The notes beneath the pieces are model-generated. The model was not told the origin of the DNA. It worked only from the letters and a program-made list of their open reading frames with translations, and ran no database searches. 64,000 bases of DNA from Sipunculus nudus (Eukaryota > Annelida > Sipuncula > Golfingiida > Sipunculidae), in NCBI GenBank assembly GCA_026874595.1, contig CM049318.1:59306250-59370249 (forward strand). Reading direction: 5' to 3'. How positions within the stretch are numbered: the stretch's first letter is position 1; each line of letters begins with the position of its first letter. Below are positions 12,889 through 58,900 of this stretch, in pieces. The translations under genes and the position numbers were made by a program.

Positions 12889-13947
12889 CTGAAAGACAAT
12901 GAAAAATATTTAAACTTTTATTATAAAAAATATTTTCAAACATATTTTCATATGTTATATAAACATCATATAAACATTATTTTCAATAAAGTCATTCAAA
13001 TTATAAATGCCACATAATTTTTAAGTCCCAACATAAACATACTAATGCCAGTGCCACTGGGAAGGTTTGTCTCAATTAATAAAATTGGGATCTATATAAT
13101 TTTTTTTTTCTCAATTTAGGTTTGATTGATATCTTAGACAAAATATATTCTCCTGCTGAACACTTTCTTGCTACCAGAAAAAAACTTTTTTTTGTGGCAA
13201 TGTATTATCTTGGGAGAAAGGTATGAAGAAATTTTTTGTATGGGATGAGAAGATGACATATCTTGTTTTAAGAAAATCTAGATATATTTCATTACCTGAA
13301 GGATACTATCTATAAATCAAGAAGAAATATTATCAGGATTTCTTGATAACAGAAAAATTTCTCTGGATAAAAAATATTATCCTATCAAGAAACTTATTTT
13401 AGCAGTGTAAATTTGGATTGTCCCTGTGTTATTTAAAAACCATCTGATGTTCAACAACATCCAACATTTAATAACAGTCTATAAGTGCCATACAATAATG
13501 CCTTTCAAAACATAAAACCTTTCAAATTTTATCACATAAATATATGCAGGTCTTTTTCAGAGATATTATCAGTAACACAAGACAAATATGGAGAAATTCT
13601 ATTGGTATATATTTGTAGCGAGTTTCATAAAAGCCTATCAGAAGTTTGGAAAATCATCAAAGCGCCAATACCATTAAAGTCTGGGGACCTCTGACCTTGT
13701 TAATTAAACATGAATAGATTTTTGCCAAGAAATAAACTCAGTTGAGATATTACACTGGTTAATATTTCTGTTGAGTTCATCCAAATACATCATATTCTGG
13801 TAAGTTATCGCAGCAACACCACAAAGAAGCCTGGTGACCTCTGACCTCATTAAATATGCATTGATTTTGCCAAGAATCAAACTTGATTGAGATAATCTAT
13901 TGGTGAATAGTTACAGTAAATTTAAGAAAATCCAATTACTTCCTATA

Positions 13948-16900: not shown

Positions 16901-19900
16901 AAATGTTTGTCCCAGTTCAACAATACCCTTGACTCAAATGTATAAACAGGTCAGGTCATGTTAAATGGAAGTCATGAAATGAACAGAATAATAAGATATG
17001 GTTAGGGGTTAGTAATATTAAATAATGTTGTGTATATTTTTATCATTATTTGTGTTAATCAGTAGATTGGTTTGTTTATGTATCAAGTATTGTTCTGCAG
17101 ATGACGTGTCATGAGACATAGATTTGGGCTAGGTGGACTGTTGGTTGAGTTTCCCACAAGGACGTTTATTGGTCCTTGAGAAAGTTATATATTTGCTGAG
17201 CAGGGCTCAGGAATACTATGCTGAAGAATTTTATTTGGAGCAAGTAACAGCGGGTGAAAGCCAGTGAACTGTGTACTTGGAAGTACTGTTTGTAAGACTG
17301 GAACCCATCAACGGTGGGCCAAAACCATTTGTGACGTTCTCCGAAATAAACTTATTTTGTTTCAACCCCATGACTTGGTATTTCTGGACATTTGCATGAA
17401 AGTTCCAGGGAAATATATGTCCGCTGCATGTGTGGTGTGTCCACAATTTCAACATAGTCGGTTCAAAACATTTTTTACAAAAATGAACACAGATAAACCA
17501 AAAGACCGAGGTCAAAACATTCTACCTCTCACCACCTGATGGAGCTGTAATTATATGAATTTCTGTTTTTTTTTTATACACCGGTATTTGATGTAAAGTT
17601 GGTTGATATATATACCATTAATTATCAAGTACAGGTCTTTTTTATTACATGATATTTTCTATGAGGAATACTGGAGAACGGGTTTTGTGACAATTTCAAT
17701 GGTGATGTCGTATTCAGGCAATTAATGGTAGGAGTTTGCAATGGGTACCTAAATATATCTTAAACAAGCATGAAATTATCATAAAATATTTCTTGGTCTA
17801 ATAATGGAATAACATTATAGTGTAATTCACTTGAATCCAGCCACATATTGTGATATATTTATTTTGTTAAGAGTACTCACCTATTTTGATATCACATTTC
17901 CACACTGACAGAGGTTTTCTACACAAGTTTGGTGGTCCCGCCTCCTTTCCTCCGAGGATGAACATACAAAGCTGGTCCACCTGATGGTATGAAGTAGCCT
18001 GAAAAAAAATAAACAAAACATGCCTAAAAAGGTGTTACGAAGACAAATTCTCAGGGGAAAATTCTGGGCCGATCCGAGATTCGAACCCATAACAGTAGCG
18101 CAATAGTCTGGCGTACCAACCGCTTCGCTAGCAAAGCAAGCTTCACTACACCCCCACAACATTCATCACTGAAAGCTGGTATCCTTGGAGGCCCAACCTG
18201 CAGATTAAAAATTTGGTGTACAAGTTTAGAAGGCTGCTCCAAGCCAAATCAGATAAAACATGCAGACTCAAAAAATTCAAGAAATAAACAAGACCAGTGC
18301 AAATGTGCACAATACGCCTGTCTTATATGTCTTGTGTCCTCTGACCTCATTAAATATGCGAGAATTTTGCTGGGCATTGAACTTAGGTGAGATATTATGT
18401 TTGTTAATATTCCTGTTGTATTTCACCAAAATCCATCATATTCCTATAAGGTTCAGGGACACACCAAGTAGTCTCATGACCTCTCGTCATGGAATTTGTC
18501 TATTATCGAAATCGGGCAAGATATTCTTTCGGTAAGTAGTTATATGGAGTTTGTGAAAATCAATTGAATCTCCGTTAGTTATGGCAGCAACATTTAAAGT
18601 TAACTGACCGACAGACAGACAGAATGTGGGAATACCATAATACGTTCCGTCATAGACAGCAGTAAAAAAAACAAGGGACCCATGGGTCACGGCACTCAGC
18701 TGAAGTTTGAAATTTTTGCAAATGCAAAATATGCAAAATATTCTATGGTAATGTTTATGATTTATATAAGCATGTGAGAAGATAAGAGGAAAGGGGCCCT
18801 CCCACTTGGTTATAGTAAAGTTCTAAATATATGATTGCAAACTATTACTCTGACAAGACTGTCATGAAGAAAAACAGTAAAAGTTTTGAGATACTGTGAT
18901 GCATATGAAAAATTTACAGATGGACAGGCAAGTGGACAAAATGGACTAATACCTTTATTTCACTTTCAAGGGAATAATGCATTTAAGTTTATATAAAAGG
19001 GACCCATGGGTCACTGTGCTCAGCTGAAGTTGACCTTGAAGGTAAAAATCCAAAATAATATCAAATGGAGATAAAGTGTGAAAGAAAGAGGTAATATAGG
19101 CCATGGTTGGTTTATATGATTGGTTTGTATTGATTAGCAAGAAATCGTTGCAAATAACATTTTGTGACCTGACCATGTGTTTCCTAATGTTGAAACTGAA
19201 GCATGTGAGCATGGGGGGGAAATCGGGTTGTGATATGAGAATAACTGTACACCAGTGACCTGGAGTGGGACCCTGCATCTGTAATCTGTAATCAAAGCAA
19301 ACTAGAATACGGGTAGTCGACAAGCGACTACGTGTATCCGCCTAAATCAGAGTGGAACGGGTGAAGTGAGTCATGGATTGAGTGGCAAGGGGAAATAGAG
19401 TGTTGCATATTAGCATGGATGTCTGCAGCCAAATTGTGTATGTAGGTTGCCCCCCCCACCACAAAATCAAGAAAGCCGTCCAAGTTGTATACATATGCAA
19501 AATTTAAGGCAGATAAGTCTAACCACTACATGTATATGAGTGATTTTAGCCCGTGGCAGACAAACAGGTGGACGCTGAGCAAAAATGGTTGAAGGTGACG
19601 CCACCAGTTTTGCGTATGATAAAGAGCTATGTGAGAACTATACACATGCAAAACTTTGGCCTAATCGGTCAAAGGTTCCCAAGATATGAGCTTGGATGTC
19701 TGCTGCATAAACTAGAATGCAGGTGGCGCCACCTGTCATAAAATCAAGAGAGCTGTCGGGGATGTATAAACCTGCAAAATTTTAGGCAGATATGTCAAAC
19801 TGCTGCCGAGATATGAGTGATTTTATCCCATGGCAGACAAACAGACAGGAGCTGTGCAAAAATGGCTGCAGGTGGTGCCACCAGTTTTGCGTATGATAAA

Positions 19901-22900
19901 GAGCTATGTGAGATCTATACACATGCAAAATTTTGGCCCAATCGGTCAAACGGTTCCCGAGATATGAGCTTGGATGTCTGCAGCGTAAACGTGAATGTAG
20001 GTGGCGCCACCTGTCATAAAATCAGAAAAGCTATCCAGGATGTATACGCATGCCGAATTTCAGGTGAATTAGTCAAGTCACTGCAGAGATATGAGTGATT
20101 TTAACCCAAGGCAGACGAACAGATGGACACTGTGCAAACATGGTTGCAGGTGGCGCCACCATTTTTTGTGTATGTTATAAAGCTCTCCAAGGGCTACATT
20201 TGTGCAAAAAAATTTTCCTGATCGGTCAAACTGTTCCCGAGATATGAGCTTGGATGTCTGCAGCGTAAACGTGAATGTAGGTGGCGCCACCTGTCATAAA
20301 ATCAGAAAAGCTATCCAGGATGTATACGCATGCCGAATTTCAGGTGAATTAGTCAAGTCACTGCAGAGATATGAGTGATTTTAACCCAAGGCAGACGAAC
20401 AGATGGACACTGTGCAAACATGGTTGCAGGTGGCGCCACCATTTTTTGTGTATGTTATAAAGCTCTCCAAGGGCTACATTTGTGCAAAAAAATTTTCCTG
20501 ATCAGTCAAACGGTTCCCGAGATATGAGCTTGGATGTCTGCAGCGTAAACGTGAATGTAGGTGGCGCCACCTGTCATAAAATCATAAAAGCTATCCAGGA
20601 TGTTTATGCATGCCAAATTTCAGGTGAATTAGTCAAGTCACTGCAGAGATATGAGTGATTTTAACCCAAGGCAGACGAACAGATGGACACTGTGCAAACA
20701 TGGTTGCAGGTGGCGCCACCATTTTTTTTGTATGTTATAAAGCTCTCCAAGGGCTACATTTGTCTCCAAAAATTTTCCTGATCGGTCAAACGGTTCCCGA
20801 GATATGTGGGTTTATGTGTGGAAACAGAAGCACAAACGGACGCAGAGCGCAGAGGAAAGGTCAGAGGTCAAAACAAAATCGGGGCGCAGCAGTTCACATG
20901 TGACCCGAACATAATCCCGGGTTTCGTAAAATTCCGCCCAGGGGTTACAGAGGAGTTCTCCGGACACCTACGCGGCGGCCGCGGCAGTGGCGGCGTGCAG
21001 CTGAAAACAAAGTATCCGCAAAACTCTGTTTTGGCGGATACAATGACTACAATACAGCCTCAAGAAAAAAAATCAATAACTAGCTTAATTTTCAAGCTTT
21101 TATTTTCAAATTTCAGATTTAAACAAATTAAAATACTTATGTTTACATGCTGAGAAAATTAAATCTAACTGTATGCCGAATTTCAGATTCTTTGGTCCAA
21201 TGGTGTCGAAATGTGCCAGTCTTACGGACAGACATCCGGAGAGACGGCCGGCCGGACGGACGGGTAGACAGACAGACGGACGACGGACAATGGACCACGA
21301 CCATAGCTCAGATGACTTATAGTCAGCTGAGCTAAAAAGGAAAATTTTGTATGATCTTGTTCATATAAATCTGAATAATAAATGAACTTCAATATTCTGT
21401 GAAGAAGTGTCAATGTTCAAACCCAACCCTATTAAATAAAAGAAGGAAAAATCAAAATCTGTTGAGAAATACGGGATAAGCTTCCCTTGTGAATTAATGA
21501 TGGATGACAGATGGACAGACAGACAGATGCCACATCACCAAGGTATAACCTCATGGGGCCTATGGCTGGATGAGCTGAACATCCAAATTTGTCTGTGTAA
21601 TATCACAGTATTGTTAGTGTAACCCCCTGTTTTTCCAACTTTGATACAGTCCGCCCCCCCCCCCCCCCCCTTCAAATCCTGGATGGGCCTCTGATAATAT
21701 CTGATCATGTTTGCATACCACTTATACACAATGCAGGCTGATACTCCGAGACCAGGTAAACATAAAATAAGAAGCGAATCTCACCTTTCTGAGAGAGTTA
21801 TCTAGCTGCCTCCTCTGTGAACTGGTCGGAGAATCTCTCATGGTTTCCATCTCAATATGGTCTTTCTTGTTCGGCTGCTTATTAACGATCAGTCTTTTGC
21901 CACTGTCTGCTAAACCACCCAAGAAGAGCATACTGGCTGGTGTATGAATACGATCATTTTCCGCCGGGAACATCATGTACTTAGAGTTATTTGATGACGA
22001 GTCTGTAGGCTCACTAAGTGTGGGAGACTCACTGAGAGAATGCTGGAACACTGGGTTCCGAACCTCCATTTCAACATGATCCTCATGATGCATTAGCTGC
22101 TTGCGCTTGGCCATTTGAGTGGTTTCCATTGGAACATCTAAGCACAAATCCCGGTTGTGGTTTAAATCCTGTAACTCGATTAATCCCGAGGAGTCACATG
22201 GGGTGGTGACAGGCTTTTTTAAATAGTTCACGGCTTCAGTAGGAACATGATTGTGCATATGAGTTACTTGCCAGTGGGGATGTAAACGATCATTCGATGA
22301 TAAAGAACTGGGAGATTTGGCACTTTTACTTGCTGTATCTGCCGGACTATACGAAAGTTCAGCAGATGACAGACTATTACCCCCATCGCTGTCTCTGATA
22401 CAAGAATCCCCGAAATGTCGTGGAGACCCAATGGTCGTAATGTTTGTAATCACAGGTTGCTTAACTTTATGCTTTGGAGAATCCCCCAAAACAAATCCCG
22501 GAATACACACATCCAGAATATCTGTCTGAGAGCTCCTCAAAATAGCATTCATCTGAGGGTAATCCATAACAAAATCATCACTAAACTGCCTCTCAGTTTG
22601 CTTAGCCTTGCCTGATACATCAGTCATGCAAAAATCTTCAGGTAACCAAGGTGAGTTTCGTATATTGTCAGCTGATAAACTTCTCTGCCTCTGCAGAGTG
22701 TTCAGTTTTATCGGCTCTGAGTAATCAAGGCGACATCGTTTTGTCCTATTTTCCCATTCATCATTACCTCTGCTGTTTATTTCGTGCAAATCACAAATGT
22801 CACCTGAATGAATTTTTTGCGAGTGGAGACAAACAGAATCTTCACAGAATAACATGGCGGACCGACACCGCCTTCCACTCCATTCTTTGTTTCCAATCCT

Positions 22901-25900
22901 AACAAACTCTCCTTTTGTGTCAGGTAAGAAGTTTGGATTATCTACTCCTTGGCCTGATGACATAAGACTACTATGTGTACGACTTTTCTGTAAAAAGTTT
23001 TTCAATAATGGGACCCGCTCCAAGCTTGTTTCTGAGTCCATCGGACGCATCAATGGAGAGGCACATGCGGTACTGGTGGAGGGTGCTTCATTCAGCATCA
23101 CTGTGGAGTACTGAGATTCGGTGGCTGGTGATCTCATTTCACCTATGTATGAGGTGGAGCTATACATCAGATCAGACCCTTCATCCATTGCACATACATC
23201 AGACTCTTCAGCAGAACATTCACTTTCCCCTCTGCTGTGCTCAATTTTTAACACCTTAATATCATTTTCACCACTGGTGTATCCAAGTCCCTGTGAAGTG
23301 TTTGTAACATCTGAGATCGTTGGTTGATCGGGAATCTGTGACGCCAAACTCTGCCTGCTTCTATGGCTGAATTCTCCTGCTTGTAATGCTGATCCCTGGC
23401 CAAGAGTTGAAGCAGCAGTGATATCTGTCGGTGATACGACTGGTGATACACGATTTTTGAATACATGACCAGTTTGATTACTGCTGCCATAGTCAGGTGC
23501 GGGGGGACTGGAGTAAGGCCTGGGCAGTAGTTTCGCTGTCAGAGTCTGTTTTAGATGGGGTACTGATATGGACCTATCAGCAACGTTTTCATGCACTGCT
23601 GCCATAAGCTGAAAATGTGGAATAACGACCGTGCTGTGTCCAGTCCTAGAAGGAGGGACACAGGAGTGATGGAGCTGGATTTTCTGCCAAGTCTGGGTCG
23701 CTAAAAGTACAGAATCAATAATGACATAAACATCAAAATTTAAGTTTAACATAACTTCATCAAGCTCAACGACTGCTCACTTCTAATCACCATCTTTAAA
23801 TCTCTCAGGCAGTTCTCAATTTCATTTGTTACTAAGAATGCACAAATGATTTATATTGGGAAGATCTGCATTTTAGGTATGGTTAACAGTAATATAAGAT
23901 GGTTTTAGAGTATATTATATTCACTCAATATACCAGCAACTTCCAGATAATGTAAAGGAAAAAGGTTAAGCTTACTTTATTTTTTTTATTTATTCTTTTT
24001 TTTACTTTCCAAAGTCACTTTCAGATTATCAACATGTGTTATTCCATCTAACAATGTAATTTGACCTCAATCCCCTGCAATTCAACAGAATCCAATACTT
24101 GCAATCAATACTTTATTATGTGTTCTGTGACACATTAAAAAAAACCATAATATATTCTCATTCCCCCCCCCCCCCCCCAATCATCCCCTTGATCATAACT
24201 ACTGATATTGCTGATAATATCTGTCGTTCTGATGTTAGCAAGAGGATAAGCTAACAGGTATGAACTTTCTTAGAAGTAAACTTACAAAACTGAAATTTCC
24301 ACATCTCATTCAACAGCGCCCCCTGGTGTTCACCACCAAAGATAAGCATTCCATCTGGAACCTTCAAGTGAAAAATGTACACTTCAATCCCGAAGTCTTT
24401 ACAGTAAAGTCATAAATTCAGCCATTTCTGATACAGTTCAATTTATTCATAACTTAAGGTGAATATACTATATGTGGGGCTTACAGGAGTGGTGAGGATG
24501 GACAGCCTATGCCTTCATCAATATTTGGCTCAACAGACAGAATTTAGTATCTAGTTGGCTGCCTCACAACATCCCAAGTTATCATTTTTGTTAGTGCTCA
24601 GAAAAATTGATGGTATAACATTAAGAAAATTCTCAGTTCAGGGACTTGCCTTCTGTAAAGCCTTTGACTGCATAACACACTCATTGTCAGCAGACTGCCA
24701 TTGTCAATCATGTCAGTTTGTTGATGATGTCTGTGTTATATGGTTTAAAGCTACAGTTTCACAATTTTAAGTAAATCCCTGAGTGTATAAATTCCTTAAC
24801 TTTAAGGCATCTCAAGGAAAAGGATCGAACATACACAAATTATTTGTAATTATGCCTGCCACAAACATAATCACCAGTCTCTGGCCAGTCATGACACCTT
24901 TATGTATATTCCGCTCAAAACAAGGTAAAATATATTATTTTTCTCCTTGTTCACAAAGTGATAACACACAATCAGCCAATTATTTGAAACAGCCAAAATT
25001 ATTTGAAACAGCCAATAATTTGTCACCAGTTCAGAACACAAAATTCAAGTATTATGATAATTTTCTGCATGAGTAAGCAACTAGCGAAGTGTTGTCAAAG
25101 CATAATTCTACTTGAACCCTGAATGTCGTCTAGAAAACAGCTGTACATTTTTAATGTAACTTAAGTATGTGCATATAAACAGGCTACATATACAGCAGTA
25201 AAAACAAAGATTACTTCATTTTTCACTCAATATGTAAACATTTAGCAAGTGACCCTCTGGTCATGGTGCTCAGATCGTAGTTTCTTACAGTCTCATGACT
25301 GCAGGGTTTGTAATATCCTGTATGTGTTGTTGGGTATCAATTACCTTGGCTGCTGTGTGGCCACTCAGTTCTAGAGGTCCAGATTTGGATTTGATGCGAT
25401 GCCAGGTTTGCACAGCTGTAAAGAAAATCTGTAATATTACAAACATCCCAAAGATGTGAAAATATTGGACATAACATCTGGAACTGAATACTAATTGGTA
25501 AATAAGATACCAGACATGCCAGTGAAACTGATTTAACATCACAGTACCCCTGGGTTCTTTATAATTAGAGAATTTCAACATCAAGGCATGTAACATCGTC
25601 TTCATATATCACAAAACATCCCAAAGATGTGAAAATATTTGACATAACATTTGGAACTGATTACAAATTGGTTAATAAGATACAAGACATGCCCTTTAAA
25701 ACTGATTTAACATGTAGCCATAGGTTCTAAATAATTAGAGAATTTCAACATCTAGGCATATAACATTGTCTTCATATTCGCAAAGCTAATTTTTCGCAAT
25801 TTTCACTTTTTCACTGTTCTGCAAGGGTTCCAACTGACCTGTTTGTCTTACTTTCATTATTAACCAATCATCACTTTATAAGTATATTGAAATCAATTTT

Positions 25901-28900
25901 AAACACTACCTCAGGTAAAAACATTGTAAATTACATATCTCTCCATCTCTCACCAAAATTCCACTGCCACAGATCATTCTTTGGTTGCAGGTCCATCATT
26001 CCACCGAATATCCACATGCTCCCATCATGCACCACTGCGCTGTGCTGGTGTCGGGGTCCAGGTCCCTGGTCACCTCGCTCAGAATAACTCAGGTGCCATG
26101 ATTCTGTTTCTACAACATAAACATGATAACACATCAACAGGGAGTCTGGTGTTTTTCTACTGCAAATAATTCATAGGTGGCAGAACCATACAGTCATAAT
26201 TTCTGGAATAAGGCAGCTTTATTATCAGTTTCACAGACTGTTTCACAGACTGTGTCATAAATATTTTTGCGCCATGGTATAAATATCTTATTTTTAAAAC
26301 AACTGCAACATATAAACAACAGGATGAGGTTTTTACTTCAGTTGTAGTGTATTTTGGTTCAGGAAGACACAGGCCATACACTCACAGCTGCCCTGACATA
26401 AAACAGTAAAACATCTTTGTAGCGGTGACATGGCTTTTGTACTATTTCCGTTTAATCGTTAATACAGACATTTGAACAGGGAATTTACGCAGTTACCTTA
26501 CCATGACTGAGCTATACCTCAATAAAATGAGATACCTGAGATCATTATGGATTTTCTTGTTTTACAAAAACATATAGTACAGACCTCATAATCCTACCCA
26601 AGAGCATATGTGGGGTGGTGACTAAAATGTACTCTCAGATATATTTAACATTATAGTCACCATTGATGGCTATGCCTTAACAAGCCCTGCCATCATAACA
26701 AGGTGATGAAGCCGGGTAGAGCTCTGCCAGGTCATACATCAAAACCTTGTGTATTATAAGATAAAGGCTTTTGGCGGTTTTTCTTTCAAATTCTTACCAA
26801 AGTCAAATGACCAGAGGTCTCCATTGGACCCTTTTAAATCCACATAGCCACCGTGCACGTGCATGGCATTGTAGGATACCACTGCTGTGTGACCCCGCCG
26901 TCCACAAGGTGTGCAAACCTCAGAGTCGACTGTGAACTTTCTCCATTTTAAGGTATCTGAAATATACACATATATACAAGTGTTATTAAAATAAAAATAA
27001 ATGGGTCTTTAGCTCTCCATATGAACAACCCATAAGACTGATTAGCTGAATGTTGATAACCTTAAACAAACAATGAGTTCTGGATCTTATGGGTACATAT
27101 TTGAATAAAGACAAGGTTAAGGTCAATATCAGTGTCAAGGTCAAGTATGAAGGTCTTTGTCTTCTTAGCCATCTTTGTAGACACATCAAGGCTCAAAATA
27201 ATGTTAACTTTTCTCTTTTTGGGTCTGGTGTAAAGAAATATGAGAAATACAGGTAGCACCATAGGTCTTGTGCCACTGACACTGCTACCCATGATAAATG
27301 GGCACTACATGTTTCAGATCGATCCATGTATCTGATTTATGTATGAATTTGACTCAACATGGCCCAACTCAAGGTCAAGATCACCTTCATAGACAAAGCC
27401 ATGATCCCATTTGTAATAGGATTTAATCACCAATCTAATGATAATGTGTTAAATTTAAAAGAAACCAGTCATTTATTACAGTTAAACTTTATTTATTTTA
27501 CAAGGATTGTACAACTAGTTATAAAACTAATATGAGGCACTCTCCAGGGCTCTAGTTGTGCATTCAGTGGTGTCTATAGGTAGAGAAAACCGGAGAACCC
27601 GAAGAAAACCAATGACCTTGGACGGGCAACTACAACCCCCTCTCATGGCCATGCCAGGGTTCAAACCCGGGTTGCCAACAGAAAGCACCAAGTGTTTTAC
27701 CCCTTGACTGTCCAAGCCCCACAGACATATTGCTCCCATTGGAGGCAGTGATGGAGAATTGACCTATCCACCACTGACCAAATGCTCCACCCTTTTAACC
27801 TAATTATTACAATGAGCCTCCAAAACACTCCTACACAGGTCTTCCATGCCCGTGGTAGCAAGAGCTGTTTACAACATAATAATGACGTCACAAAGGTCGA
27901 AGACGTATGACGTCGCATTGACTGACATCATCTAATGGTAATACTGTTCTCAATTATTGAATATATCACAGTCATTGTGTATTGTCTTGCAATATTTTGG
28001 ATTATTTGACTCATATGAATTTCATGCAAGGTAAGACATTATTCCCTCGGTAGTCAGAGGAATGGCTCCTGCAATCTATAGCCTAGAACTTTTTATACTG
28101 TCTCCTTTTGATAAATAAATATCCCAGAAAATATGTTGACATGGGTACTGGTACAAACTACATGTGTTCTGTTTGACAGAGCTCTGTCAAGTTATGCAAA
28201 ATTTTTGTCAGATTATTGACGCTTTACAATCTTTAAGGTCACCTGATTAGTTGCTAGTTAGTCCAATGCTTCTGATTATTCACTGTTTGAATATGAGATT
28301 AAGGTCACATAGAGTTCATGGATAGGTCAATTGTAAATGGCACTGCCAGTCCTGTGTATAAGATAAATCTATCCAAGATCTGAGGTCACACCTAAGTTCA
28401 GGACAATCCAAAAACCTGTTTTTGAAAAATATGCTTTCTGCAATTTGACCAAACATGAACAAGGTCACAAACAGAGACGGTCTTGACCTTTAAGTTTGAA
28501 AAGGCTTCATTCAGAATCTATATGTATCCACATGCAACACTAAAAAGCTATTAAATAAAAGGTGTTAATTAGTTTTTTGAGTAGTTTCACTCTAAATGAT
28601 GATCAGCAGAAGCCATACAAATGAGGTAAAACATAGTGTCCCAGACCTTCCTACCTGGGGATGTAACAAATAAATCTGTAAGTTAACAAATCACTCACCG
28701 AGATCAAGAATCCAGAGAGGGGTCTCATCTGATGAGCTGAAAGATCCTCCAAATACATACAGTCTTCTCTGCAACAACATAAAATCATATATACACATTT
28801 ACCTATATGTACAATTTATCGACTGAATTAACTCGGCCAGCAAGCAGAATCTGCATACCATATCAGCAACAGGAACACTTATGGTCATAAACTTGGTAAA

Positions 28901-31900: not shown

Positions 31901-34900
31901 GTTGCAAGGGCGAATGCATGACACACACATCAGTGTGTTTTGGGATTTATTGTTTACACTGTTGAACTCACCACCAGTGGACATCAAGCTACAAGTGCAC
32001 TCTACTATCACCTCTGTGACAGGCACCAGCCTCTCTTTATTTTATCAAGTAAAAACTCCAGGCTATATATAGCTCACATGTAGTCAAAGCCAGCAGGTAA
32101 GGCCAAAAAAAAATAAAAGGTATAGCTCTCAGGCACTGCCCGCATCAATTTGAACCCCCCATCAAATATTTTTATTTTGATTTTCATCTTTCAAGAAGAT
32201 AAAATAATACAAATTTGATAAGATTTCCTTTGCTATGTAGTTCTTTTACCTGTTTAGCAAAAAAATTCTATTATTTTCATGCTTTTCCCTGATCATATGA
32301 CATTTTTATCGAAACATACAAAAATGGTAAAAAATAAAATATTGCCCACCTGCACTGGTTTCTGAAACAAGGGACCTATGTGTCACGGCGCTCAGCTGTT
32401 ATATATGATAAAAAAATATGATTTAGAAATGAGGCACATGCTGGTTTTGTGTGGTAATAAGTATAAGCTGTATTATGAGTTGTTGTTGTTAAGCTTATGT
32501 ATGATTTTGATAGTACCTTTGGAGACAGAGAAGAGAATTGATTTCATTTATTTTATTAACAAATTGAGTACTTTTGTCACACAGATTGTGACTTGGCCAT
32601 ATAACTTATAAGCAGAACATATGATATAAGAGTTTAACTATTTATTAAAAAAATTACAAATATTGTCCCAGATATAATTTTTATTAAAAACAATAAGAGA
32701 ATCGTATGATTTTTTAAAATGAAATATAACTGAAATGATTATTAAAATAATATTAAAGAATATATTCATGAATTGCAAAGTATTCCCACCATGTCTGGTA
32801 TTTATTCAGTTTTCACCAAACAATGGTGTTGAGAATCCAGAATGTACAAAATTCACACATTTAAATAATGATCATAAGTACCTGGTTTTATGGCTTTTAT
32901 TTATATTAAAAAAAATAAATGTGATATATTTATTTTGGACTAATTTCACATCAATGTACACACTAGACACAGTAGGAATCTAGATTAATATTATAAACTG
33001 CATCTTTGTCTATCATTAATTTCCTTCATATGATCCCTAATGATTAGTAATGAATAATATGATTTACTTTTTTATTATTAAAATTGAACTGAAAAATGCC
33101 ATAGGTGACTGCATGGTGTTATTTGGAATACGTGACATTCTATCCATCAATACAAGATTCTTATATCATCAGTAAGTGCAAGTTAATTCCCTATTATTAT
33201 AAACTAACAAATTCCTTTTCTATTTTTCTTTAATTTGTTATTAAAAACCCAATAAAAATTGATTAATTTATTGTTTATTGTTATGTTGTTGGTTAAAACT
33301 ACTAGATGAGTTGGGTTGGACACCTGGATCACTGTGGCTGGCCATAAGCTGCCTTGCTGCCCCAGTATATGCCTCCCTTCAAGCATGCATATTTTGCTGA
33401 AAGTTCGATAAGGTCAACATACATGTGACTCAAGAGTGGCTGGAGAGAGCCAAGGTCTGACATGGTCTCATAAAAACATTAATAAAAGCTACAATTTTTG
33501 GCCAATTTCTTTCAGCTTTCTAAACTAAAAAGCTGAAATCCTTATGTGTGCATGATATGAAAATTATATAAACAGAGCTCACATGAAACAAAAGTGAAAT
33601 GGTCAAAGTTGGGCAAAATTTAAGGTACTAATTTTATATTTATACTAATAACTTATAAAATTTTAAAAATTCAGAACTAATTTTGGGTATTCAATTGAAT
33701 CTTGATTAAATAATGTTACATCCCTGACAAAAAATCTCTAGCTTCAGCAAGCCCCTTGTTAAGGGAGTAAATATATTTCTTGATTTTTTACAAAGTGCAT
33801 TATGTTTGGGCCCATAACTTAAAACAATTACGCAATACTGACATCATTTCTGGCATGTGCACTGAGAATGTATAGAAAAACATGTATATTATATATGATT
33901 AAAGTTAGATCAGTGGTTTTGATATTAGGCAGTATTGAAGTGTAACAATGGGTTTTTAATTGAAAAATGAAGTTTTTCATTAATATCTCAAAGGTATTAA
34001 GATTAAGTCTTAGTGACCAAATTCTTGGCATGGTAGGGAATTTTGGCTACATTTAATTGTATGCCAAATTTTAGGAACTGAGAGCTTAAGCTGGAAAGCT
34101 GAGCTCTTGCAAACTGCATAAAACTAGCCTGATGTAATTAATATGTTACATGAGCTTGAAAACTTGAATAAAATCTACAGTTTTTGATCAACTGGTTTCA
34201 AATTTTTGGTGTTAACAGACAAAATGCTAACAAAAACATGCTGAGAAAATTAAATCCACAGTACTTACAGGAAAAAAACGTGCAATGGTCAAAGTTAGGC
34301 AAAATTTAAGGTACCAATTTTTTATTTTTGTTAATATTTTAAAAAATTTAAAAGATTTTGATCTAATTTTGGGTATACAATTTAATTTTGATTAATTAAA
34401 GTTATATTAATTGAAACTAGATGTGTCGGAACGACACGAATGCCCCCGCCTTGGGCAAATTAGAAACATTTGTAAAATTTGGAAAATTTTTTAAGTTCAG
34501 GAGGTGTCGTATGGTCAAAAGTAGGTCAACAAGGGCAAAATGCAAACTCGATCGATCTGTAACGGGTCATTATCAAGCAACACACCAAAAATCATGCCAG
34601 TATATGCAGGCATTGTGAAAAAAAGTCCATAAATGTGCATTTTCCATAAAAATTTCTTTCATGAAATTTTCTATGTTTAGGAGCCGTAAAACTCGATCTG
34701 TAACTGTCATTATCAGTACAAAAAAGTCAGTACATATGCATTTGTTATGAAAATTTATATTTTTCATGATACTTTCTATGTTCAGGAGCAGTCAAATGGT
34801 CAAAAGTAGGTCAACTGAGACAAAACAAGAACTCGATCTGTAACTGGACATTATCTGCCTACACACCAAAAATCAGGCCTGAATCTGCAGGCACTGCAAA

Positions 34901-46900: not shown

Positions 46901-49900
46901 ATAACAGATAATTCAGTATAGATTGTGCAACTTTTTAAAATTAGCCTAATGTTAGGCCCATGATAAAAGATAGTAATCCATCATCTACTGGCTTTAATTC
47001 AGCACTGAGAACTCCCTGAGCTGACAGGATGAATAAAACAGCAAATCCAAATCACCCCTTTATTAAAGTCCATAAACACTGCTCAGATGTTTGTCCTATT
47101 TCACATTTAATCAATATGTCATGCACAAATTTACTGAGCAAAAATTAACCAGAAACACCCACTTTGAAGACCAGTATCCATAGCTACAGTGTGTGTGTCA
47201 TCAGTTAAATTAGCTGTGGGATAAGCTACTGTTTTATGAAAAGGTCAAACATGTCTGCAGTTATATATGACTGGGGGTAATGAAGCTGGGGGAAGAGTTC
47301 ATATGTTCTAAACAGGATATCTCCATTAAAAATATATTTCACGAGTATACTTTGATAAAATCATGAAAAAGCCAGCCTACCTTTGGTGTTCATGTAACCA
47401 GCTTGACATATCCTGCAAAGACAGAAGAGATCAGTTTATGAGAAACATAATGCAAAACAAAATAAACCACAAGAGTGCATAATATGCCCCTTGTGTGTCA
47501 GAAGGCCTTTGTACAGATTTCGCAGACAACTGAAATGGGTAAGCATTTATACTGAAGGTTATTGTAAAAAAAACCCATCAAATTCCAAGTTATCACAACA
47601 ATACCATAAAGAGATTTGGTTACCTCTTGATTTGACCTCATTTAATGTGTGGATTTTAATGAGAATTGACCTCACCATGAACTTAACGTGACCTTAATAG
47701 CATATTCATTTATTGAATAATCATGAACATAACTGTTCCGTGCAGCTAATCAGGTCGCTGATATTACTGTAAACTGTGAGTCCATAATATAATTTGCGTA
47801 ATTTGGGAGACCTCTCCCAAACAGTACATGTGTAGTCTGTACCAGTACTCATGTCGGCATGTTTTCCGGGATGTTTTTTATATGAAGGAGATAGTTTTAA
47901 AAGTTACCAGCCAAAGGTTGAAGGAGCCATTCCTCCAACTGCCGCGTTAATAATGATGTCTTACCTGCACAGCACATAAGTCATATGAGACAAATAACCA
48001 AAAATATTGCAAGACGGTTCACAATGACTGTAATATATTCATCAGTGCAGGGATTCCAGATGATGACGTCAGTAAATGCGACGTCTACATCACTGAACTT
48101 TGTGATGTCATTATTGCCTAGTAAAGAGCTGTGGCAAGGAAGGAGCGTTCTGGGGGCTCATTATAATAATTAGGTTGAAAGGGCGGGGCATAAGGGCTCT
48201 GGTGGTGAGGTCAATTGAATTCAGGTGAGAGACTCTGTTGGTAAATGTTTATAAATAGGTTACATGAAAATCCCTCTGATTTTTGGTAAGTCATCATGGA
48301 GCCATCAAAGTCTGGTGACCTCTAACCTTCCCTCATACAAGGATATATCACATGCTTTGACATGATGATCAACTTTTTGGACAATTTTGTCATATCTATT
48401 CCTGTTTAAGGCCGCACCATTCTGATGTGCAATATATGACGCTATTTGTGCATAATCCAATGCATTTCGAAAAACACATGCTGTAAAATGAAGAAAATAT
48501 TGTATATGCTGTTTAAAAATCCCTGGACCAGTACAGAATTCTGATTTTACAACCTACTTTTTCCTTACACAAGTGCATCTGTACCACCCCACCTTGTCCA
48601 GGGTTGTAATATGATTCACTCCTCAGAGTGGGCTGGTGTATTGAACAACAATTAAAGAACATTCAGCGATGTGTCAGCCACAGACACTCCCATACCAAGC
48701 ATTCTATCAAGACTGTTATAAAATCAATAAGCATACTAAACATACATGCACGCTGATATACACACCAGATACTGTACAATTACAGTACTGTGATGTTCAA
48801 ACAAAAAACTCCAGGGCTTTAACAAAGCAGAAATAAGGAAACAGTAGCTACACTCCGCTGACTGACAACCATCAGGCTGATGCAGTCTTCAAAATCTGTA
48901 CCAGAGCTGAAAGACTATGTAGCTGCTTGCATTTTTCTCTCTTGTTCTATATATGTTCTTTTAGATTTAGCTAAACATGTAAGCAGGGATCATAATACTT
49001 TGAAATTTTCACCTTTCCAAGGGAAAGGCATTCATACAGGTTTGCCTTTCTGCAGAAAAATTTGCCTTTTCTGCTGAAGATGCATCCTACCATAATATCA
49101 AACTTTCAGTCAAGCTCAGTGTAAACCTGATTCTGTCATCTTACATGCCAATAATATATAGGGGATATAAATATAGGGGATCAGGGCCTAAATGGTGGAA
49201 AGTATAAGAAACTATAGACCCATTTTTATAGGAAAATATTGGAAATATAGGGATTCGGTGGAAGATCATCTGTAAAATATTTTGTTTTTGTGTCATGTTT
49301 GTTACTACTTATCAGCTACTAATGTGGAAAACATCTATCGTAGGTAGGTATTCACCTTTCCAACAGTTTGGTACAAAATGAAAAACACCTTTCCGTGCAC
49401 GTTTGCCTGTCTGAGTAAGGAGGAAAGGTGTTATTATGACCCCATGCGTAAGAAATGACTATACAAGCTGAAGTCAATTTCATAATAAATATTCTGCTGT
49501 ATAAATTAGCTTTAACTTTTTACAAGTGATAAAATGAAAATTATGGCTAAAACAAGATCTTGCACTTTTAAACTCTTTTAAAAACAGTTTATTTTACTAG
49601 ACTGGTAATAACTTTAACATAAAGAAAGATATTAATCTTATAAGCATCACATTTCATGCAAATTTTTTGGTGAGTTTTGTGAATCTCCATCAAAGCCCTG
49701 GTAAGTTATCACAATGACACTTAAAGTTAATGGATGGACAGACATTATACATCCCGTCTATGATGGGTGTATAAAAATGGTAAAGCTTTGATTAATGCTA
49801 TTATAAACCCTTATAAAAAGGACACTATATGAATCTAAACACTGTCCTGGGCATTTCAATTATTTGTTTTTGCAGGAGACTGACATATGTACACCTGTAG

Positions 49901-52900
49901 GCTTGAGTGACATGGGAAGTTTTTTAATTCTGAAAGTGAGAGAGAACTACTCCGAAGTTGATTGCGTTCCCCTGGGTGGATAGATATTGTTAACATATCA
50001 CATTACCATGTGAGCAAATGCTATAATCACTTTTTAAGCTATGACTTTATAAGCCCTGTTCCAACACCTGTCAACCCACCTCCACATATTTTTTTCAAAC
50101 TTTATTCATTATCCACAATAATTCAGCTTTAATAATAGAAGGAAATGTGGTTTTATGACAAGTTAAAGTATGAAACAAATACTTTTATTTTGCAATGCCA
50201 TCTTTGTGAAGGTAATGTGCATTTCTTACATTTGCTTGTGACAAAAACAACTTTATGTAGTCTGCATTTATAGGAAGATGTCAGTCTTACAAATATTCAA
50301 GTCATACTTAACATGTATAGTAAAATTTTTTTGGACCTGTATAATGTGTCTGTAATAGCTGGTTGTCTGTTGAAGTAAAGTGTCTACTTGACCAGGTTTC
50401 ACTGAATATACTGGGTTTTTTTTTTTTACCTCAGAAATGACCTTGTGATATAAACAATAAGAAAATGAGTGCAATATTACTGTCATTGACCTGAGTAATT
50501 TGAAGGTTATTGTTTTTTTACCTGATTCTGTGTGTGTCCCCAAGATATCTGGTGAAAATGATGGGGGGGGGGGATAGGTTGGTTAGTTAACATTCAAAGG
50601 CACCAACTTTGAGCAATATCTTCCACGCAGGGTTTGCATCCTGATATTGGACACTTTTTTAAATTAATCATTTAATTCCCGATTTAATTTTGTATTAACG
50701 GCATGCTTAAATTCAACATCAATGCATACATTATTTGACTTAATGTTACAGGCCATGCAAATGGATCTGATGGTGGGTGGATTGATGACTGAGCCGCCCA
50801 GCAAGATCACAGGACTGGTACACCTGGTGGTGGGCTGAAAATAAACCAAATCAACAACCCAAGCACTGTCACAGTGCTCTGAAAAGGTGCAGTGAATTAA
50901 TCCATTAATTGCTATGGGGACAGGCTGGGGGCTGGCAATATATTATAACAGGCAGGGGAAATCAGATCCACAACTCCCAGGTATGTTACTCCGTGAGTGC
51001 AGTTTACTTGTGGCAGTGATTATAGTAGTTTTCATCACTACGGCTATTGTTTGGGTGGAAACGTCAATATCACTAGGGATCCTTTAATGGCAGGCACACA
51101 TCATTCATACAGTGTGACCCATCTGACGGTTAGCCTGTGTGGTGGGTACAGGGACCACAGTAACATAGTTGATGGGGTTATATACTGATTGCTGTAGGAC
51201 TGCCCAGGGAAAGTGAAATGACGAGGACCAATTCAATGGCACTGGTTATGCTGATATTGATTATCAGACTATGTTTGGTGATCAATTAAAAAAAAATATT
51301 ATGGCGGAGTATCATGATGAATGTTAATACTGATTATGAACACATGGTTATCAATCAAATATTGATATTTTTATGACAACAGTCTTATTTATATAAAAAT
51401 GTCTAGCAACAACATAAAGCAGCCTCAAACAATCACAAAAATAGCACACATTTGCAACAGTACCAAATTGTCTTCAATAAGCCAACAAAAACATTACTCA
51501 TTCCTACTGAAGATATTTTGCCTTGAAATATACTGAAAACAATATTATGCCTACAGGCATAATGCAAACCTGTGCAACGGGATACACATTAGGTATAATG
51601 TTTTCATGATAACATGCTTGACCATTATTTGAAAAGAACTTGCTTACTTTTTAAATACCGGTGTGAAATGTACATGTACAATGCAAGTACAAAACATTTT
51701 GAACCCAAGTACAAGCACCAATTACAAAAACAACACTGCTGAAATTCTTGCATGGATGCACACAACATAAAATGATTGTAAGTGGCGCCACCAGACTTGT
51801 GTAAGAAAAAGCCATCAAAGATGTATGGATATGCAAAATTTCAGGCAGATGCCTCAAACCACTGTTGTGCTATGTGCACAGATGCATGAAACCCAAAAAC
51901 AATTGTAGGTGGCGCACAATTCTTGTATACAACAAAACTATTCAAGGTGTATGGACATGCATGCACAATTTTAGGCTGGCATGTCAAATTACTCCTGAGA
52001 AATAATCAGGGACATACACTGTGAAAAAAATATTGCAGGTGGCACCACCAAACTTGTGCAAATAAAGCTATCTGAGATGTATGAATTGCACAATTTCAGG
52101 CTGATACATCAAACTTCTCAGTAAGGCGCACTCTGATGACCAAGCTAAACTGAGGCAAGCAGTTGCTCCCAAGTGAATTGAAACTAATATGCAGGTGCAG
52201 CTACTGCACTGAGTGAACCCTTGAACTCTATCTGGCTATACTGACTGAACTCTTGAACTGTTGCCTAATCTGACACAGTTGACAGTCTGCAAAGCTATAA
52301 ATTATACAGATGCAGGCTGAAACTTGGCCTGTTGCCAAATCTGAATAGTTAGCAGTCTGCCAAGCTATTTATAGATACAGACAAAATCTTGGCCTGTTGC
52401 CAAATATGCTTACACATACTGAATGAAATTGGCTACAATGCTTTTTTTCATGCTGACATATTCATAAGATTTTTATCAAAAATGTTCAGAATAATAACAG
52501 ATGCATTTCAAAAGCAAAATCAGAATACAGATATATTTTATTTATGGATTTTTCTTACAATCTGACATAAGCTGAATAAGGACACAAATTATTTATGTTG
52601 CCTGTACAGCTCTACTTATATACCCACAGCTAAGTCTGTTAATACAATAAATCTACAAGCTTTGTTAACCAAAGTATCTCAAAGTCCTTTAAGTGTTAAT
52701 TGTCTAATAATTCAGTCAAAAATCATTTAACTTATTTCATGTAAATTAGAACCTAAGAATATTTTTTTAGCAATGTTACAGAATTTGAAACAACGGTTTT
52801 AAAGAAGAAGACTATTGTAGCCCTCAGTTTGATACATGCTTACTTGACCACAAGACCAAATTCAGTTTTCTATGACTCTACCAAAAATCAATGAACTCAA

Positions 52901-55900
52901 TCAATTCTTATAAAACTGAGAGAACCCTACCTCAGGATAATTCTTGTGAAAATTTAAACCATTCAGCTTAACAGTTTCATCATGAAACATTTTTAATGAG
53001 AAGCTGAATGGGGCTAAAATTATAAGGATTTTGCCCACAAAAAACAGGATGATGTAGATGGTGCCACAAAAACCTCAATTTCAAATATGAGTCATGTGAC
53101 CAACATTTGCATAAAACCTGGTGATGATAGCTCCAGCCATTTCTGATATTGTAATTTTAGTATCCTTTTTTTGGCCAAATAACTTATTTCACTTTCTGTA
53201 ACTTGGCCAAAAATCACCAAACTGGAACCATTCAAACAAAATTGAGAGAGATTGTTTCAGGGATGGTTTCGGTGAAATATTTAATAATTTGGCCAGACAG
53301 TTTTAGAAAAGAAGATTTTTAAAGTTTTTTTAGCTTTTTCACAATATAATCTAAGTCAATGCAGATAGCAAAAAAAGCGCAATCTGACAGTTTTTTAGAT
53401 AACTGATTTTTTGCATAAAATTTGGTGATGCTAGCTCCTGTCGTTTTTGAGACAGAATAGGTTAACGTACAGATAGGTTAGTATGGGTTTACACTCTAGC
53501 TCACACGTTCACTAAACAAGTGACCCATGGGTCATGACGCTCAGCTGACTGGGAAGAGATTCGCAAAAGGAAATTTTATCATTAGAATGGTAGTATATAC
53601 CCATTCAACTGAAGCATCAAACAGATTAACCAACAGGCCAAGATTTAGTCTGTATTTATATATCTCAAAAATAGAGAAAAATGTGTAAACTTTTAAAACT
53701 AGAATACGGGTAACCGACAAGTGACTACATGTATCTGCCAAAATCGGATAGTGAGGCATGGATTGAGTGGCAAGGGGAAATAGAGTGAGGTATGTTGCAT
53801 ATTAGCATGGATGTCTGCAGCCTAAATGTGTATGTAGGTTGTGCCACCTACCACAAATCCAGAAAGCTGTCCAAGTTGTATACACCTGCAAAATTTTAGG
53901 CAGAAAAGTCAAACCACTACATGTATATGAGCGATTTTTGCCCATGGCAGACAAACAGACAAACACTGTGCAAAAATCTTTGCAGGTAACCCCTCCAGTT
54001 TTGTGTATGATAAAGACCTATGTGAGATCTAAACACATGCACAATTTTGGCCCAATCGGTCAAATGGTTCCTGAGATATGAGCTTGGATGTGTGCAGCGT
54101 TAACTAGAATGTAGGTGGCGCCACCTGTCATAAAATCAAGAAAGCTGTCCACGATGTATAAACCTGCAAAATTTTAGGCAGTTATGTCGAACCACTACAG
54201 AGAAATGAGTGATTTTAGGCAACGGCAGACTAACAGACAGACGCTGTGCAAACATTGTTACAGGTGGCGCCACCATTTTTTGTGTATGTTACAGAGCTAT
54301 CAAAGGGCTACATTTGTATAAATTTTATTTCCTGATCGGTCAAACGGTTCCCAAGATATAAGCTTGGACGTCATCAGCATGAACGTGAACGTAGGTGGCG
54401 CCACCTGTCATAAAATCAAGAAAGCTATCCTGGATGTATACGCATGACGAATTTCAGGTGAATTAGTCAATTCACTGCAGAGATATGAGTGATTTTAACC
54501 CAAGGCAGATGAACAGATGGACACTGTGCAAACATGGTTACAGGTGGCGCCACCATTTTTTTGTGTATGTTATAAAGCAATCCAAGGGCTACATTTGTAT
54601 CAATTTTATTTCCTGATCGGTCAAACAGTTCCCGAGATATGAGGGTTTATGAGTGGAAACAGACCCACAAATGGAAACTGGATAGAGAGGAAAGGTCAGA
54701 GGTCAACGCTAATTGGTTAGGCACCAGTTCACATGTGACCCGATAATAGGTGTAAGTTTGGGAAAAATCGGTCCATTAGTCTCCGAGGAGCTCTCTGGAA
54801 ACGAACGCCGCCGCGGTGGAGGAACTCGGTCAAAAACATAGTATCCGCAAAACTTCGTTTTGGCGGATACAAAAATACAGGTGGCTCCACCAGTCTGCAG
54901 AAACTAATAAAAACACTTAATGGTCAATATCCATGCAAAAAATCATGGTGATCTCTGCATTAGTTGTTCAGATACTTCAGTTTTTGTATCAAATTGTCCA
55001 TTATTCTGAGGGATACTTCGGAGTCCTATAGCTTGAAGGATATGGGTAACAGAGACCTAATTTCAAGTTTCCACAGGCACCTTTCATGGGCCTCCTTGCA
55101 TGACAAGAATGAAGATTCTAGGTCCAGTTGTTGCGATTTGTACCCTGTTGACAGATAACCACATCTTTAAAGGTCTCAAAAAAAGAAAAAAATTCGTAAA
55201 AATTTTAAAAAAAATAGAGGTGGCACACCCAGTCTGCAGAAACTGATGGAACAGCTCATGATCAATATGTATGCCGAAAATCATGACCATCAGTTTTGTA
55301 GTTATTGAAATACTGCAGTTTTTGTATCAAATTTTCCATTATTCTGGGGGGGGGGGGGGTATTTTGGACCCATACAGCTTAAAGAATATGGGTAACAGAA
55401 ACCTAATTTCAAGTTTCCATGGAGACTTTTCATGGGTCTCCCTGTGTGTCAAGAATGAAGATTCTTGGTCCAGTTTTTATGATTTGTGCCCTGTTAACAG
55501 ATGTTCATATCTTTAAAGGTCTCAAAAATACAGAAAAATTTCGTAAAAAAAACCGAACAAATACAGGTGGTGCCACCAGTCTGCAGAAACTTATGAAACA
55601 CTCCATGATCAATATCCATGCAAACAATTATGGTTATCTCTGCATTAGTTGTTCAGATACTTTAGCTTTTGTATCAAATTTTCCATTATTCTGAGCTGTA
55701 CTTTGGAGTGCCATAGCTCAAAGGATATGGGTAACAGAGATCAAATTTCAGGTTTCCATGGAGACTTATCATGGGTCTCCCTGTGTGTCAAGAACGAAGA
55801 TTCTAGGTCCAGTTGTTACGATTTGTACCCTGTTGACAGATAACTACATCCTTAAACGTCTCAAAAATGGAGAAAACAATTTGTGAACATTGAAAAATAC

Positions 55901-58900
55901 AGGTGGCACCACCAGTCTGCACAAACTGATGAAACATCTCATGATCAATATGTATGTCAAAAATCATGACCATCAGTGATGTAGTTAATGAGATATTGAA
56001 GTTTTTGTATGAAATTTTTGACTATTCTGGGGGGTAATTTTGGGCCCCATAGCTCGAAGGATATGGGTAACAGAGACCTAATTTCTGGTTTCCATGGAGA
56101 CTTTTCATAGGTCTCTCAGTGTGTCGAAAATGAAGATTCTAGGTCCAGTCGTTACGATTTGTGCCACGCTAACAGATGACAGCATCCTCAAAGGTCTCAA
56201 AAATAGAGGAAAAAATCGTAAAAAATCAAACAGTAAAGGTGGCGCCACCAGTCTGCAGGAACTGATCGAACATCTCATGATCAATATGTATGCCAAAAAT
56301 GAAGACCATCAGTGATGTAGTTATTGAAATATTGAAGTTTTTGTATGAAATTTTTTACTATTCTGGGGGGTACTTTGGGGCCCCATAGCTCGAAGGATAT
56401 GGGTAACAGAGACCTAATTTCTGGTTTCCAAGGAGATTTATCATGGACCTCTCAGTGTGTCAAGAATTAAGATTCTAAGTCCAGTCTTTATGATTTGTGC
56501 CTTGTTAACAGATGTTCACATTTTTAAAGGTCTCAAAAATAGAGAAAAAAATTCGTAAAAAATCGAAAAATACAGGTGGCACCACCAGTCTGCAGGAAGT
56601 GATGTAACATCTCATGATCAATATGTATGCCAAAAATCATGACCATCAGTCAAGTAGTTAATGAGATATTGAAGTTTTTGTATGAAATTTTTTACTTTTC
56701 TGGGGGGTACTTTGGGGCCACATAGCTCGAAGGATATGGGTAACAGAGACCTAATTTCTGGTTTCCAAGGAGATTTTTTATGGACCTCTCAGAATCCCAA
56801 GTTACAAGGTTCTAGGTCCAGCGGTTACGATTTGTGCCTGGTTAACGGACGGACAGACGGACAGACGAACGACGGACAAAGAGTGATCGCTATAGCTCAG
56901 ATGACTTTCAGTCAGCTGAGCTAAAAATGTTTTGTCCAAATGTTTAACCATGTGGTATAGATCATTAATACTAGTAAAATGAAACTTGTTTGGTTTACTT
57001 TAAAAGGTTACCAAAATTGTATTTAATTCTGACATTTATTCGTGTCAGAGCAGGCAATAAACATAATGATATTTTTAGGAGCCAGTTAATCTGATTGTAT
57101 TGTGTCAAAGTCATTGAAAACCTTATGTGTTTGTTTTGTTCTCATTATTAACTTATATATGGTGCCTGATAGTATACAGATACCAAGGCAGCAACTCTGA
57201 TATCAGTATGGTCACAGAACAACACACACAGTACCAAGGAAACCACTCTGGTATCAGTATGGTCACAGAACATCACACACAGTACCAAGGAAACCACTCT
57301 GATATCAGTATGGTCACAGAACATCACACACAGTACCAAGGAAACCACTCTCATACCAGTATGGTCACAGAACAACACACAGTAGCAAGGCAACCACTCT
57401 GACATTGGTATGGTCACATAACATCACACACAGTACCAAGGAAACCACTCTGATATCAGTATGGTCACAGTACATCACACACAGTACCAAGGAAACCACT
57501 CTGATATCAGTATGGTCACAGTACATCACACAGTACCAAAGCAACCACTCTGATGTCAGTATGGTTACAGAACATCACACAAAGTACCAAGGAAACCAGC
57601 AGAGGACAAGATGGACAGCGGAGGTGGAATGGGTTGTATGGATTATGATTTTGATCATCATTAACTATCATGGCTCACTTGCAGCTACCCTTTCAGAGTC
57701 CTTGCTTCATCAAGCAAGTCTGGGGTTTATTTCATGAATTTCAGGAACAAGAAACCTGAACCAATCTAATTGCTCATATACATTTCCTCTATGCAGCAGC
57801 TACACACTTCTGCAGCTATTTATAGATGAACCTTTAGCATTACCAAAAGGACATAAAGAAAAAGACCAATTAAATGAAGGTTTGTAAACCTATCCCATTT
57901 CTGGTGCACAAGTTCTTGTTCAGACAGCATGTGAACAGTTCTGACAATAATGTATTATTTACATGTTGATTGTTAAATCTGATTGGCAGTAATGATTTAA
58001 CCTGAACATATGCAGGCTTGTTCATTAATTATGAAAGAAATGCCAGATGGTCTTGATGAAGCAAGGCTCTCTGAAAGCATAGTTTTCATAGCCTTGATAG
58101 TAGGAAGATGATTTTGACACCAATCAGTATTTGATACAGCATGTTTTTTTAATACATGAAAGTGTTCTTTGATTCCTTTGATATCACTGACCTGTCAGCT
58201 GCAATGAATGCTTCTGTCAAGATGTCTGATAACATGCTCCTGGTGACGCTGTCCTGCTGGATACCATGCTGCAAAAACAAAATAAATTACTAAATTTACA
58301 TTACTGAAAGTAATGCAACAATTACATTAATTACAACTTTAACAATGTCTTTCAATAAAATTAAAACCAGAAAAAAAGTGTGCATTGGCTTCTGATTTTT
58401 GTGATTTTTATATGTATTCATTGTCTGTGTATGTGAGTCAACATGTGTGTTGGTGCAAGACATCTACCAAAAGATTTATATATCTTAACAAAACTTAACA
58501 AACAAATTTCATAATGTAGACAACTGAATTATATAGAATCAGAAATAAATCAGTGTACAATTGAAAACTGTTTTAGGATTTTTAAAGGTAACAATTCTTT
58601 ATGAGGCATACATGGAATAAATACACTGTTAGAAATATAAAAGTATCTGCCACAATTTTGTTCTAAAACCATTTTAACTCCTAAACAGAGTAGAAATAAA
58701 CTTGCACTAGGAGGAATCAGTGGCGAAAAACAAAACATAAACAGAGCATAAACCAACATAACTCAAGAAAGTGACCAACATCTATAAATCTAATTTATTT
58801 ATGACTCATCTTTCTTCCTTGTGTGCATGCTAGCACAATGTTTTACCATTGGCCACGTGGTCTTGTGAGAGTAAACTGACACACTTGAAGCACAATGTTT

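Follow-up and report, generated by a model that had tools for sequence, protein, structure and literature searches.

Nesting of three probable HINE families, non-autonomous rolling-circle transposons, in a 64-kb stretch of the Sipunculus nudus genome

Introduction

HINEs are non-autonomous Helentrons, a class of rolling-circle transposons to which DINE-1 and the bivalve Pearl elements also belong. In the oyster Crassostrea gigas, the elements named Cg_HINE are described as carrying a 5′ subterminal inverted repeat (subTIR) of 11–12 bp, a complementary inverted repeat (IR) of 7–12 bp and a 3′ subTIR together with a palindrome (PMC7492417). According to the same description, several Cg_HINEs carry a GTCY, GTCC or GTCK microsatellite, and their central repeats are mostly 140–180 bp long (PMC7492417). 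Their insertion is reported there as T-rich and without target duplication, and insertions into other repeats are noted (PMC7492417). Here, we analysed a stretch of 64,000 nucleotides from the sipunculid Sipunculus nudus (GCA_026874595.1, contig CM049318.1, positions 59,306,250 to 59,370,249 of the forward strand), hereafter called the window, to whose first letter all coordinates refer. The window contains four copies of a small, non-coding, rolling-circle transposon family (S), three of which hold a guest element from one of two further families (P and N). We consider it very probable that S, P and N are three HINE families and, jointly with this, that P and N inserted into S separately and later.

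Results

Four S elements were located by patterns for their two ends. The S-head pattern, with up to three mismatches, matched at 18677, 19001, 32373 and 53522 (four matches versus 0.00 expected in shuffles), while the tail pattern GTCAGCTGAGCTAAAA gave nine matches at up to three mismatches versus 0.53 expected, four of them exact and ending at 21337, 36356, 43764 and 56926. These matches confirm the four copies near the positions given in a preliminary description of the window, namely S1 (18671–21338), S2 (32366–36358), S3 (42590–43766) and S4 (53515–56928), all on the minus strand. The head of S3, too diverged for the pattern, was placed at about 42590 by direct reading. All four copies start with TTTTT, end in CTTG followed by T's and have TT or more past the 3′ end. 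The copies that hold guests measure 2668 (S1), 3993 (S2) and 3414 bases (S4). S2 has units of its own, about 690 bp long, and S4 carries an array at 54871–56846 with a tandem period of 336–337 bp. The guest-free S3 carries diverged copies of this 336-bp unit and matches S4 at 66% from position 344 of its 1177 bases onward. The right part of S1 resembles the S2 units (E 8e-9 and 4e-31).

In S1 the 5′ hairpin lies at the high end, and the low end carries two S 3′ ends, near 18671 and 18997. The two lie 326 bp apart and are alike over 62 columns (77%). The outer 3′ module (18671–18996, minus strand) is S-like for about 60 bp and then without detected similarity; it could be either the remnant of another S or the product of read-through past the first terminator. 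A weak match to the S 3′-module profile was also observed at 25246–25273 (E 0.01), perhaps left over from a further S copy. We abandoned a SINE-like interpretation of the S tail (GAGCTAAAAA), since this end, read on the other strand, is a T-flanked subTIR hairpin.

The guests are likewise on the minus strand. P1 (19302–21044) lies inside S1 and has about five 280-bp repeats, P4 (53699–54871) lies inside S4 at the edge of its array and has about three, and N2 (34417–35887), inside unit 2 of S2, has repeats of about 180 bp; the tandem periods are 280 bp in both P copies and 180 bp in N2. These coordinates are refined ends, whereas the analyses of modules, folding, family relationships and target counts used ends 1–5 bases further in. 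P1 and P4 belong to one Pearl-like family, with 84.8% identity over 957 columns from their common start, and N2 showed no match to either at E 0.5 or better. Thus, as proposed previously, S1 and S4 hold one family and S2 another, with guests occupying between a third and two thirds of their hosts (65% of S1, 1743/2668; 37% of S2, 1471/3993; 34% of S4, 1173/3414). In S3 the geometry scan described below returned only the element's own 5′ hairpin, and no guest was detected by hairpin scan or sequence comparison. The 3′ terminus of P1, P4 and N2 is CTAG followed by T's. This resembles the CTRR end of Helitrons. A decayed P-like repeat array outside any S (51750–52118; E 4e-17, 6e-15 and 1e-4) was assigned to the minus strand from its repeats only.

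Read on the minus strand, all seven elements have one layout, in agreement with the preliminary description, which had seen the same plan in the two guest families: a 5′ subTIR, an IR that makes an imperfect hairpin, internal repeats and a 3′ subTIR, with a palindrome or stem-loop less clearly recognisable near the 3′ end. In every one of the seven 5′ hairpins, stems of 8 bp and 5 bp are separated by an unpaired C on the 5′ arm and capped by a loop of 3 nt; the S1 hairpin, with a mismatch between its two stems, is located at 21304–21334 on the minus strand. Folding energies of subTIR plus IR lay between −10.6 and −13.1 kcal/mol, with z from −3.5 to −6.3 (7/7), and this common geometry is found despite subTIR sequences that are unlike between S, P and N. 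A sequence-blind scan for the geometry, combined with a TTT near the 5′ base and a GC fraction of at least 0.3, returned six sites in the 64 kb, every one a 5′ end of these elements, compared to one site in total in 20 Markov shuffles; P1 was missed because it lacks the TTT at that place. A looser hairpin score was less discriminating, since, among 1000 random 95-nt stretches taken from the window, 16 reached the value of the S hairpins (12).

At the other end, the 3′ subTIR matches the 5′ subTIR over 8–14 nt with at most one mismatch in all seven elements, although the match is shorter than the 11–12 bp of Cg_HINE in S1 (9), S2 (9) and S3 (8). A 3′ stem-loop is present in P1 (z −1.9) and N2 (z −2.8), and a 3′ sequence palindrome in S1, S3 and S4. 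Microsatellites of the GTCN type lie beside the 5′ module of S1, S2 and S4 in exact form and beside that of S3 and N2 with one mismatch; none was clearly seen at the 5′ modules of P1 and P4.

Sister repeats within the hosts provide empty sites for two of the three guests. The joined flanks of N2 align to the uninterrupted unit 1 of S2 (33473–34158, minus strand), its paralogous empty site, with 184–187 identities in 239 aligned bases when the refined ends are placed between ...CTAG and T, and the junction then closes with 0–2 single-base gaps, depending on the A chosen as the end. With ends slightly further in, the values were 186 of 238, with one 7-base and one 1-base gap at the junction. For P4, the joined flanks (58 and 129 bases) align to all seven sister spacers, five in S4 and two in S3, with 158 of 179 in the best case. 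In the comparison with the spacer at 55080–55340 (148/182), the two sides meet in a closed A-run at the junction, and 45 bases on the left contain a single one-base gap. N2 interrupts one of the two S2 units and P4 sits at the margin of the S4 array; the sister units show no interruption. Target duplication is not evident at either site. N2 in S2 and P4 in S4 are therefore supported as insertions, and the intact termini of P1 suggest that it entered S1 in the same way.

A number of observations weigh against this interpretation of the elements and their nesting. The S 3′ palindrome did not fold better than shuffles in five copies (z −0.6 to +1.7), it is broken in S2, and its single compensatory change was equalled by 107 of 500 shuffles; the 3′ stem-loop of P4 is decayed (z −0.7). 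No source of the enzyme was seen in the window: among 11 closed open reading frames (ORFs) of at least 110 amino acids (aa), the longest of 684 aa and the remainder of 111–144 aa, ten were compared with Pfam (all except the minisatellite ORF at 57303), and none of these had a match at E 0.01. Spacer lengths vary, so that six of the seven P4 comparisons need spacer gaps of at least two bases, and only about 45 bases of the left flank of P4 are clearly array sequence. Because both junctions lie in A-runs, duplication of a few A's is possible at N2 and P4. The empty site of P1 could not be rebuilt from window sequence. Apart from these points, comparison with Rfam gave no match at gathering thresholds, and exact IUPAC patterns for external copies had no match in collections of viral and prokaryote contigs, which says little given the nature of these collections.

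The three junctions bear on whether the nestings share a single origin. Between S1 and S4, a threshold of E 0.5 returned the terminal modules and one weak internal stretch (E 0.001) as the only matches, and the host sequences beside the P1 and P4 junctions show no similarity at this threshold. The insertion points are non-homologous, and P1 and P4 therefore appear to represent separate events rather than one duplicated event. A single nesting followed by segmental duplication, named in the preliminary description as what would overturn its proposal, is extremely unlikely: P1 and P4 are indeed 85% alike, but the host sequence at the P junctions is dissimilar, and S1 resembles the S2 units while S4 resembles S3. 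The proposal that S and its guest move as one composite unit was not supported either. Although guest and host share their orientation in 3/3 cases and have the same hairpin geometry, the three junctions are unlike, none was found twice within the window, and N2 and P4 interrupt host repeats with uninterrupted sister units, which makes a composite highly unlikely. The related suggestion of a shared mobilisation is plausible as regards mechanism, given the common hairpin geometry, but the subTIR sequences differ between the families and do not point to one shared transposase. Finally, rolling-circle copying might have added P and N to S, through capture or read-through, in place of an insertion of their own. 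The two S 3′ ends 326 bp apart in S1 are what reading past a terminator could give; however, each guest has both of its ends and the host repeats close across N2 and P4, so that we regard this route as very unlikely. As judged from sequence comparison, the nestings would most simply be three separate events.

All eight readable directions (S1–S4, P1, P4, N2 and the decayed P-like array) are minus, which has a probability of 2 × 2^−8 = 0.008 if orientation is random and the copies are independent. Were such orientation blocks to hold genome-wide, Helentron insertion might be directed by the replication fork or by transcription, as reported for the bacterial single-strand transposons IS200/IS605 (PMC5371812); guest and host would then agree in orientation without any composite. 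We consider directed insertion quite improbable. The orientation count is post hoc, the guests are not independent of the A-runs of their hosts (191 AAAA versus 114 TTTT), and Cg_HINEs are reported in both orientations (PMC7492417). GTCN microsatellites of three exact units number five in the window and none in 10 shuffles; all are minus, and three belong to S copies, whereas the other two lie no more than 180 bp from either end of S1. With one mismatch allowed, there are 14 minus versus 3 plus clusters, but outside the elements and the neighbours of S1 the numbers are 4 minus versus 3 plus, and this lack of strand bias also speaks against directed insertion.

Whether the guests chose S more often than expected depends on which copies are counted as insertions elsewhere. 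Outside S, the window contains a decayed dispersed repeat family, Q, with three copies in the same direction (13677–13911, 18329–18540 and 40093–40285) and a further weak match at 47631 (E 3e-4); the units of the first copy are about 150 bp apart, and S1 lies close beside one copy. Q may be a HINE family. The sole point in favour is a GTCN microsatellite at 18602–18624 (minus strand), about 50 bp left of S1 and beside the copy termed Q1, which resembles that of S4 (E 1e-4) and may be the remnant of another HINE 5′ module. The hairpin beside Q1 did not rise above background, and a comparison of the right flanks of Q1 and Q3 for the direction of Q was not significant (best E 0.95).

Guest-free S hosts comprise 6,872 bases, or 11.5% of the guest-free window, yet they hold all three intact guests (P of three or more = 0.0015 by length). 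Of all AAAA and AAAAA sites in the window, 19% and 25%, respectively, are located in S hosts, and N2 and P4 lie in or beside host repeats. These observations would fit a preference of P and N for S sequence as a target, for instance for its A-rich repeat linkers. On the other hand, the count is post hoc and comes from a single window. Adding the P-like copy at 51.75 kb (3/4) raises the probability to 0.0056, adding the three decayed Q copies as well (3/7) to 0.0375, and adding the weak Q match (3/8) to 0.055; with AAAA/TTTT as the target, counts of 3, 4, 7 and 8 give 0.0045, 0.016, 0.093 and 0.13. The smaller values are optimistic because the case was singled out for its nesting, and selection against insertions near genes would produce the same pattern. 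Searches of one open-access collection turned up no paper stating that HINEs nest preferentially. With chance values ranging from 0.0015 to 0.13, a preference for S is possible, but we consider it rather unlikely.

The surroundings of these elements showed several other features. A further GTCN microsatellite right of S1 (21506–21528) perhaps represents the 5′ module of an older element into which S1 inserted. If the older element were an S with its 5′ module near 21500–21580, S1 would be a three-level nest; the S 5′-module profile matches the microsatellite part only (E 0.03), and the hairpin score of this region (6) is ordinary for random windows. Close beside S1, an open frame of 684 aa is located at 21722–23776 on the minus strand; it had no Pfam match at E 0.01, and its best PDB match, CNNM4, was not significant (E 0.099). 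A dispersed repeat pair (27757–28332 and 47664–48216) is 71% alike in opposite orientations, and minisatellites outside the HINEs were observed at 9890–10644 (about 45 bp), 57176–57598 (about 51 bp) and 58832–59060 (about 57 bp).

Discussion

The element anatomy, considered together with published Helentrons, suggests how the nests could have formed. A Rep/helicase supplied in trans would nick the 5′ end and copy one strand until it met the 3′ stem-loop or palindrome; the strand would then insert at T residues without target duplication. Four S copies probably came first, and three of them later received a guest in separate events, P in two cases and N in one. For N2 and P4 the targets would have been A-runs, which are T-runs when read on the element strand, inside the hosts' repeats or at their margin, as the empty sites support, while the entry of P1 into S1 is suggested by its intact termini. 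Such nesting would need only T-run targeting in A/T-rich dispensable sequence, perhaps with selection removing insertions elsewhere.

Clean local nesting of HINE in HINE with built-in empty sites helps to fix element ends and relative ages. If it holds elsewhere, the 8-1-5-3 hairpin geometry of three sequence-unlike families could be used to search for 5′ ends of Helentrons without reference to their sequence. Should the uniform orientation prove general, it would offer a testable hint about the target choice of rolling-circle elements in animals.

The repeats of P and those of S3 and S4 have in common a stretch of about 70–100 bp around GGTGGCGCCACC (best E 1e-6; 8e-6 in a second comparison), and because of this stretch the two arrays may share ancestry. 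Related repeats are also described as common to some Cg_HINEs (PMC7492417). Compared by plan only, S, P and N have the same overall organisation as the Cg_HINEs described there and as Helentrons in general (PMC4067079), while the periods found here (280 bp in P, 336 bp in S4, about 690 bp in S2 and 180 bp in N2) differ from the mostly 140–180 bp of the oyster elements. Modular ends and short internal arrays are also shared with bivalve Pearl elements as these are described (PMC7492417, PMC5139131, PMC11136912), and P is Pearl-like in plan. The accounts of DINE-1 of Drosophila (PMC2374699, PMC4067079) give a similar set of features, namely subTIRs, an IR partly complementary to the 5′ subTIR, a 3′ stem-loop, a microsatellite, insertion at TT and no significant ORF; the DINE-1 subTIR described there is 13 bp long and of other sequence, and the likeness is one of plan. 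HINEs with internal satellite-like arrays are already well described, and Helitron-derived structures inside other elements have already been reported in oyster. The nests in S. nudus are a tidy example of this known phenomenon and not a new kind of element.

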